A stretch of 64,000 bases of DNA from NCBI GenBank assembly GCA_964019415.1, contig OZ025878.1:3476512-3540511 (forward strand), given 5' to 3'. How positions within the stretch are numbered: position 1 is the first letter of the stretch; every line of letters begins with the position of its first letter. Shown here piece after piece: positions 39,694-52,387 of this stretch. A program made the translations under genes and the position numbers. Below the pieces are notes generated by a model. It worked only from the letters and a program-made list of their open reading frames with translations. It was not told where the DNA came from and did not search any database. Source of the stretch: Ianthella basta (Eukaryota; Porifera; Demospongiae; Verongiida; Ianthellidae).

Positions 39694-42600
39694 TTATTCT
39701 TCGATTACAGGATCAGGTATATCCTCGGCAAGTACACACATTTGAAGTTCCACTAAGTACTCTTCTTTTGAGTACAGAGTCACACTGTTCCTCCCTGCAT
39801 CCAGCGACACTCTTGCTATTGTGCCTGCAGTGGACCAAAGATCAATGTGGAGTAATCCAGTAGACCAATTTCTTGACTGCACATGCAAATTTGTTTAGGC
39901 TCCAAGCTTGTGACTCTCAACTATGACTATGGGGCTCCAAGCTTGTGACCCTTAACTATGACTATAGGGGCTCCAAGCTTGTGACCCTTAACTATGACTA
40001 TATATAGGGGCTCCAAGCTTGTGACCCTTAACTATGACTATAGGGGCTTCAAGCCTGTGACCCCCATAATTTAATGGCTGGGAAGTTCAACGTCAACCAT
40101 AATACAGTACTCGTTCAAGCTATCTTGCCATCCCAAATAATATAGCAAGACCCCTATAGAATTGGTGCCTGGGTATATAAATTATTCCCCAGCTAGTGAG
40201 AAATATGTAGTTATTGCATGATGACCTCATACATCAAAGAGACTGCCACTGCAGTATTCAGATACTGCAGTGCAGTAACCAGGTAAGAGCCTACAACACT
40301 GCATTATCACCCAAAGTGTGTCAACCAACACCTCTGTAAAGTAAAAAAGACCGGAAAGGTCATGAGAATCAATTTAGCCATGAAGCTGCATGTACCAACT
40401 TCTGGAGAAGACTTAGTGGGTAGCTACTTGCATGCTCATGTGTCACTTTCACTTGTGAAAGTGATCCCAAAGATCAGTGTTACATCACATTGTACCTGGT
40501 TCAGCTTCATCCTTGATGATCAACACAGTTTGGCCTTCGCTGCTGAAGTTGTTGATCACTGCCTGCCACATCGCACTGTCACTGTCCTGTACGATAAAGT
40601 TGTGTTCCAGCTGACATGCAGCAGGCACTTCATTGAATCCAATGACAATGGCAGACACGCATTGCGCCATGTTCAAATCTGCAGTGTACATACCACCAAC
40701 AAAATGCACATGATGTTATATGTGTAACAGTAACTGTTAACTTTTAGTTGTGTTTGGGTGCAAGTGTGTGTACGTATGCGTGCGATGCACAAGTTTTAAT
40801 AGTCAATGAGAACATAATTATGTATATAATTTTTATTATATATACATACGTACCAGCACACACAGACCACACACAAATACATGCACACAGTCACATGCAC
40901 ATGCATTCATTTATATACACATTATTAACCTGATGTAGGTTTTTTGTTACGGCCTCTGTTGCATCCGTACAGGATCTCCACGTGGCAGAAATGGCGCTTG
41001 ATTTTATTCACTATGTTGGACACATTTACATCGCCTGGATTCAGTGTCACAACAAATGTAAATGTGTCAGCCATCATGGTATTGAGTTCTTTAGAGGCCA
41101 GGACCATTGTCTGTACTTCTTCTTCAGTGACCTTCAGAAAGCAAAACACATCAGATTTGTTTATCATATTTACCATGATAATAGGCATTGTATTACACAA
41201 TTTTGATGATGTATAATATGCGCGTAACATATATAAGGCTCCTATGGAAGCCTAAAGCGGGCAAAGTATCGCGGTATAATAATGATATTCATAGCAAAAT
41301 GGCTAATCCATACGAACAGAGCTAGATTGCTGAAGAGTCTCGGAGGAGTACACGCGCTGTTGTTTGACCATAATTGGATTATTTTCGTTCCAATCCTTAG
41401 CTTTTCCCACGAATGCTGCTACGTACAAAGGCTTTCAAGCCTCCTTTTGGCCCATCTGCAGACGCTCGCCTGCAACCTGTGACCTCGCACACAATTGTAC
41501 CGCTCCAACGCAGAAACAGAGAACAGGCTGGCGAAATCTGCCGCAGTAAGTTACCGACAATGATCTCAACGTCAGTCTTCACGGCGACCGCATACGCGAT
41601 GCCGTTCGGATTGCCTTCGGCTTCCTCGCGCTCTTCTTCCACCTCCGGTGTGCAAAACTCTTTGGAAACGTAGCGCCCTCGCGCTGCTGTTAGCTGTGAA
41701 TTCCATGCTGACGATTAATCTATAGGCCTGGCGCAACCTGGCTTGTTAAGCGGGAAAACTATATGATTGCACAAATTTTGGCAGAAGAAATATTACGCCA
41801 AAATTTCCAGACGTACGGATTGCATAACCAGCATGCATGTGTAAAAATGGCTGCCCCACGTGCAGGAATGTATTCGAGAGGATTTCAGTAGGCAGCCATC
41901 AGTCAGGCAGCGAGTTCTGCATCTTTTTATCGATTGACATGGCCTCCCCGCAAGGTAAGGCTAACGTTTTTGTATATTCTGCTGTAGCATTGTCAACCTC
42001 ATGATTCGTGCTGTTTCTGGCTACAATACCAGACAGAGTGCAACTATATTTTTAACACTCCACACACCACCTCTCCATTCCTCCGTACACCACGCACCCC
42101 TCAATACCTCCATACACCCCTCCTCCCCCGGACTGTACATACGATACTTAACATTTTGTGACTCACCTCACTGTCACACACTGCCAGGACTAGAGCAGCT
42201 CCCAGGAAGGATGGCATTTGATCTAGGATATGACGTTTCGTCACTGTGTCATATGTTCCCTGAACAAATGTGCAGTGACTACCATCCTTGCTGACAGTGT
42301 GTGTTGCACCTCCCTGCTGACCCTCTGCGTACCGTAGTGCTGCCTGGCAATACTCTCGAAAGAGCTGCGGAATGACATGCTGGCTGCCTTTGATGAGTCC
42401 AGTGAAGGATGATAGCCGCTCCTCTTTGGCAAACTTGGGATACGTTTCTTGTGCTGCTTGCCAGCAATCAGTGTTCGTCACCCTTAAAATTAGCATTGAA
42501 ACCAGTAAGTGTTCATGTCTGTGTGGCTTTCATTAAAATTTATCTAAAACAAGTCTGAATTGTTATACAGAGTCTCAGTGAGGTTTGTGCTTTATCTCGG

Positions 42601-52387: not shown

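Follow-up and report, generated by a model that had tools for sequence, protein, structure and literature searches.

A head-to-head gene pair in the sponge Ianthella basta very probably represents the two genes of a cut-and-paste DNA transposon

The subject of this work is a pair of divergently transcribed genes in the demosponge Ianthella basta, located in a stretch of 64,000 nucleotides (hereafter the window; contig OZ025878.1 of assembly GCA_964019415.1, positions 3,476,512 to 3,540,511) that is part of contig C11 of a 209-Mb genome comprising 96 contigs. We conclude that both genes very probably belong to a single cut-and-paste DNA transposon residing in an animal genome, the right gene encoding a transposase and the left gene a ParB-like protein. 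Mobile-element or prokaryotic ancestry of the pair had already been proposed in an initial annotation of the window; the former is supported, but it falls short in that the pair itself appears to be the element, as indicated by terminal inverted repeats, a target-site duplication (TSD), an empty site and recent copies. The unit is delimited as follows:

39430..52678, no strand: whole transposon, 13,249 bp, from inverted repeats and TSD; empty site at C26:31773-31977
39426..39429, no strand: left TSD copy, TTAG, which occurs once in the empty site on C26
52679..52682, no strand: right TSD copy, TTAG
39430..39456, plus strand: left terminal inverted repeat, in agreement with its right counterpart at 24 of 27 positions
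52652..52678, minus strand: right terminal inverted repeat, pairing with the left one (24/27)

The inverted repeats start with AACAGGTT and are located where the homology between copies B, C and G ends; in the window element they are at positions 39430 and 52678. A pattern derived from these ends retrieved 12 places in the 209 Mb at three mismatches or fewer and none with the reversed control, and these 12 places are both ends of the window element, of the copies B, C and G introduced below and of a short derivative on contig C14, the remaining two being a single end of copy A and a single end of a fragment on C15. Duplications of 4 bp flank three of the five two-ended copies, i.e., TTAG for the window element, ATAT for copy B and CTAG for the C14 derivative. 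When the two flanks of the window element are joined, all 200 bases of 200 align to C26:31773-31977 with 85% identity, and this empty site has one TTAG. Similarly, the joined flanks of the C14 derivative match five other loci at 84-86%, all three inspected ones containing one CTAG; empty sites with a single TSD copy are located on C26, C1, C16 and C12. Ends, TSDs and single-copy empty sites together lead us to consider all 13,249 bp as one insertion. The features expected of a DDE/D cut-and-paste element, namely terminal inverted repeats, a TSD that is single in the empty site and a transposase that has an RNase H-like core and three acidic residues, are all found.

The two genes and their parts are arranged within the unit as follows:

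39694..46282, minus strand: left gene, 13 exons, 801 residues, from our own exon chain, the last exons being least certain
46282-46082, 45910-45763, 44962-44729, 44595-44320, 44231-44104, 43926-43810, 43703-43577, minus strand: left-gene exons 1-7, same chain
43258-43069, 42482-42167, 41131-40930, 40678-40496, 40333-40233, 39876-39694, minus strand: left-gene exons 8-13, same chain
44104..44595, minus strand: left-gene exons 4-5 with the ParB-like motifs PIAVL ... YEVLGGLHTITAK ... LRLASRHNINGH, where alignment A1 has its highest density of invariant residues
46283..46406, no strand: divergent intergenic and putative promoter region, 124 bp (ATG-to-ATG distance)
46407..52387, plus strand: right gene (transposase), 13 exons, 2,391 nt, 796 residues, GT-AG at all junctions, no internal stop
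46407-46485, 47013-47210, 47351-47553, 47629-47835, 47907-48062, 48337-48461, 48529-48698, plus strand: right-gene exons 1-7
48822-49057, 49134-49239, 49868-49918, 50069-50289, 50371-50646, 52025-52387, plus strand: right-gene exons 8-13
48529..49239, plus strand: right-gene exons 7-9, catalytic core with the candidate residues D349, D432 and D474 (E471 and D472 adjacent to D474)
52025..52387, plus strand: last exon of the right gene, C-terminal domain matching the tail of human NIPBL (E 1.4e-4 for the window domain, 5.5e-11 for the Ptychodera homolog P0001)

The initial annotation had described two complete, unbroken 13-exon genes starting 124 bp apart. The distance and the open exon chains were reproduced, as was the length of the right protein, whereas our chain gives the left protein 801 rather than 805 residues, a discrepancy confined to the last exons, which are the least certain ones. 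In copy C, the distance between the two start codons is 201 bp. Up to exon 11, copies B and C share the intron phases of the left gene, and those of the right gene are likewise kept, save for small extra exons placed by the aligner in poorly conserved stretches. In the comparison of the window with copy B, the proportions of nonsynonymous (pN) and synonymous (pS) differences amount to 0.306 and 0.743 for the left gene and to 0.251 and 0.829 for the right gene, with pS close to saturation; the differences are strongly biased against amino-acid replacement, and hence selection has maintained both genes. Within the young group of B, C and G, the pN/pS ratio is 0.48-0.73.

At the level of sequence, we show that the right gene encodes a predicted DDE/D-type transposase (DUF7869). 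Residues 366-573 of its product match Pfam DUF7869 (PF25273) over profile positions 1-191 of 192 with an E value of 3e-61 and a score of 206.8 bits, compared with a Pfam cut-off of 26. The equivalents of the candidate triad in homolog P0001, D345, D429 and D471, are invariant in an alignment of 22 homologs, and the structure predicted for a homolog is RNase H-like, in agreement with the DDE/RNase H-like core originally read from the sequence. The Pfam entry states no function for DUF7869, the word was not found in 5.39 million papers of the open-licence literature, and no pattern match for the right protein was obtained in viral contigs. The same genome contains compact DUF7869 elements (L041/L042 and L043/L044; 2.8 and 3.5 kb, copies 99.5% identical, inverted repeats of 34-47 bp) that resemble the window element in the DUF7869 domain, terminal inverted repeats and young copies, but differ from it in their small size, a long uninterrupted open reading frame and different end sequences. 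A clear TSD was not found for them. At their places, the genome search yielded no match to the ParB-like exon of the left gene, and the DUF7869 transposase is therefore not always accompanied by that gene. Upstream of the transposase frame, L041 has an additional open reading frame of 270 residues on the same strand.

Across four divergent families of copies, the left protein shares 38-52% identity with that of the window (52% for copies B and C; alignment A1). Around residues 214-330 the motifs follow each other as in ParB, and a profile-profile alignment to bacterial ParB, for which the template was a narrow set of 54 ParBs nearly all from Firmicutes, follows the expected order over 197 columns. 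Residues 195-480 scored 19.5 against this profile, compared with a mean of 14.8 and a maximum of 25.6 for 200 column shuffles, eight of which reached at least 20.1, and residues 195-345 scored 15.7 (shuffles: mean 13.9, maximum 27.2). Since the alignment is not significant against shuffled columns, we describe the protein as apparently ParB-like, not as ParB. The ParB-like domain of the initial annotation finds no counterpart in Pfam: ParB_N matches none of the left proteins and nothing in a search of the whole genome, while 11 of 14 control genomes have a match. Weak matches of the left proteins in Pfam, NCBIfam and PHROGs (best E 0.0079) were taken for chance. By sequence, the left profile found nothing in the PDB; in viral contigs it gave 53 pattern matches, none of which was confirmed, and the only phage match of the left protein was to a terminase at E 1. 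No homolog was detected among 7,996 candidates scored in a single-sequence search. A four-row profile retrieved one protein of 368 residues from the octocoral Dendronephthya (P0023, E 7.5e-31) as the sole hit among 8,000 candidates scored. The DNA-methylase-like tail that had also been proposed is not supported: residues 560-801 resemble a methylase by eye only, and the motif [DNS]PP[YFW] is absent from four of four left proteins, three of these rows being cut short and one being a composite of two copies.

Further copies of the element were located in the genome, among them:

C2:4769003-4781518: copy B
C1:13931466-13945911: copy C
C7:2382317-2390873: copy G, internally deleted
C2:4754071 to about 4766000: copy A, mosaic
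C14:5016793-5018049: deletion derivative, 1.26 kb, with both ends and the TSD CTAG

Searches of the genome, both of which may miss copies, gave 14 matches to the core exon of the right gene and 23 to the ParB-like exon of the left gene; six of the latter were second pieces of loci already counted, and their removal left 17 loci. Eight of the 17 have a right-gene match within 15 kb, six of them head to head. When left loci were placed at random in their own contigs (5,000 trials), a mean of 0.19 came to lie near a right-gene match, and never more than three were near or more than two head to head. The two near pairs with another arrangement are a left-gene fragment at C2:4784456 that adjoins copy B, and copy F, the right half of which is reversed. 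For most of their length, B, C and G share about 98% identity, and their homology ends abruptly. The copies fall into four divergent families (window/A, B/C/G, D/K and E/F/J), and both genes were also found in D, E and F. Several copies are broken, with two stops in the left gene of B and likewise of G, and with stops or frameshifts, as the aligner reads them, in one or both genes of A, D, E, F, J and K. Within its core, the right protein is 65-70% identical among the window, A and C (68% between C and the window). The identity of this core between families (33-45%) is similar to that with homologs from acorn worm, coral and Ephydatia (31-49%), which points to a group of elements that is old or has spread horizontally. 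Four left-gene loci on C2 (3933571, 3962575, 4011678 and 4040255), of 65-69% identity, form two pairs about 29 kb apart and have no near right-gene match; perhaps they represent a duplicated orphan left gene.

Several observations weigh against the interpretation of the pair as one transposon. Copy C lacks a TSD and its left end borders a tandem repeat, the flanks of copy G agree at only three of four bases, the C26 empty site deviates from the window flank by a few bases beside the insertion point, and a weaker, partial match of the joined flanks on C23 (77%) does not contain TTAG. The transposase of copy C, modeled without stops, reads LQFNNC where B and the window have LQFDNC, with N at the second catalytic position. 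For nine of the 17 left loci, the core exon of the right gene is missing from the surrounding 15 kb; of these, copy G and C2:11288338 have the last exon of the right gene nearby and head to head, and the remaining ones look like orphans. Finally, the left half of copy A is about 91-93% identical to the window at the nucleotide level and its right protein 69.6%. Copy A also lacks a stretch matching window 45618-46667, where the putative promoter and the 5'-most exons of the two genes are located. Its mosaic nature suggests that partners are exchangeable between elements while the arrangement is kept.

According to the mechanism that we propose, the transposase would bind AACAGG-type ends, and the acidic triad D349/D432/D474 would cut and join the DNA. 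The divergently transcribed left protein would be a ParB-like DNA-binding partner that helps the ends pair, or shields or marks the element; binding rather than methylation is proposed because its methylase-like tail lacks the catalytic motif. The shared 124-bp putative divergent promoter would ensure that both proteins are made together. It is conceivable, though we lean against it, that the left gene is cargo in a real transposon, without a role in transposition and serving element or host otherwise, e.g., in silencing or protection. The compact elements without this gene fit such a role, but all four divergent families read on both sides (window/A, B/C/G, D/K and E/F) contain the gene, which is under purifying selection between the window and copy B, while dispensable cargo should have been lost more often. 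We consider it improbable that the left protein marks the element's own DNA through an active methyltransferase function, as proposed for algal ParB-methylase proteins. An Ectocarpus transposon indeed encodes a methylase domain on the opposite strand (PMC12477816), and there is the visual likeness of the tail; the catalytic motif is nevertheless missing as stated above, and Pfam, NCBIfam and PHROGs provided no convincing methylase match.

The transposon interpretation was also weighed against two readings without transposition. Open reading frames and purifying selection between lineages would equally be expected for a divergent pair of domesticated host genes with a cellular function, a reading that is made very improbable by the ends with their TSD, the empty site on C26, several dispersed copies, the deletion derivative and the copies with about 98% identity. 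Segmental duplication of the gene pair could account for copies A and B lying less than 30 kb apart on C2, but it can practically be dismissed given that the homology of B, C and G ends at the inverted repeats on different contigs, that TSDs are present and that the empty sites have a single TSD copy.

Two observations concern the surroundings and the interior of the window element. The joined flanks (window 39338-39429 and 52683-52778) hold an open stretch, LADIMYEDHLLLPKLR..., with relatives on C26 and C23, and the target of the insertion was therefore probably a member of a different repeat or gene family. Within the right part of the element, a short repeat (window 51377-51639) matches inside the left part of copy A, near C2:4764856-4765115, and is perhaps a small nested element.

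The C-terminal domain encoded by the last exon of the right gene matches a stretch of NIPBL at about residues 2710-2797, provided that residue 2804 is the last one of the chain in the solved structure. On the same assumption, this stretch lies within segment 2683-2804, which is present only in isoform A via exon 47 and the function of which is given as not known (PMC5372497), and an aligned near-terminal tyrosine corresponds to Tyr2796, which is changed in two patients (PMC5372497). Tyrosine occupies that column in seven of nine covering rows (the window, C, A, K, F, P0001 and P0002); J and E, both read from broken copies, lack it, and P0003 does not have the region. The sponge genome itself contains two exons matching the Nipbl C-terminal family at C19:5002195-5002796, and a domain of the transposase type was not seen in the open reading frames of the following 3.7 kb or so, nor in the last-exon search there. 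Capture of a transposase domain by NIPBL is a likely interpretation; a paper on such a link was not found in a search of the open-licence literature. A more far-reaching and rather doubtful proposal is that two-gene transposons of this kind form a group that is spread across animals and has not been described before. In this group, the DUF7869 transposase and a ParB/methylase-like protein devoid of catalytic activity would both be required, together acting as a partition-like end-pairing machine, and NIPBL would have obtained its isoform A C-terminal domain (exon 47) from such elements.

Our analysis offers a reading at the level of function, as a transposase, for DUF7869, a Pfam domain of unknown function spread through animals. 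It suggests that ParB-like transposon partners, reported in algae, occur in an animal element too, with the head-to-head pair kept over four divergent families of a single genome, and the existence of young copies opens the partner's part in transposition to experiment. If true, the shared origin with the isoform A tail of NIPBL would explain the source of a segment of the human cohesin loader.

Among known transposons, a 4-bp TSD such as the one found here is common to several superfamilies, including Sola1. PIF/Harbinger elements combine a transposase of another family with a DNA-binding partner, and the window element is similar in having two genes, for a transposase and for a partner whose DNA binding is predicted here. 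Membership in PIF/Harbinger was rejected, as it requires 3-bp duplications (TNA/ANT) and the genes are arranged tail to tail in Ectocarpus (PMC12477816), whereas the window element has a 4-bp TSD and head-to-head genes. Dada elements are likewise long, intron-containing DDE elements of animals, but are described as having 6-7-bp TSDs, lacking terminal inverted repeats and inserting in small-RNA genes (PMC3706591); the 4-bp TSD and the terminal inverted repeats of the window element rule out that it belongs to them. A close parallel is Sola1-1_Ec32 from the brown alga Ectocarpus, a DNA transposon with a gene for ParB plus DNA methyltransferase; by its description, it is alike in being large and in carrying a second gene for a ParB-like product on the opposite strand, and differs in its length (21.5 kb compared with 13.2 kb) and in its reported methylase domain, the motif of which the left protein lacks (PMC12477816). 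For algal ParB-methylase accessory proteins, encoded opposite the transposase as in the divergent pair described here, it has been suggested that they bind the transposon carrying them and modify it epigenetically (PMC12477816, citing Iyer et al. 2011 and Petroll et al. 2025). An animal element with such a transposase and a ParB-like partner was not found in the open-licence literature. The combination of a transposase with an apparently DNA-binding second protein has so far been described in algae, and by analogy the window element most likely works like the algal ParB-type transposons as far as binding goes.
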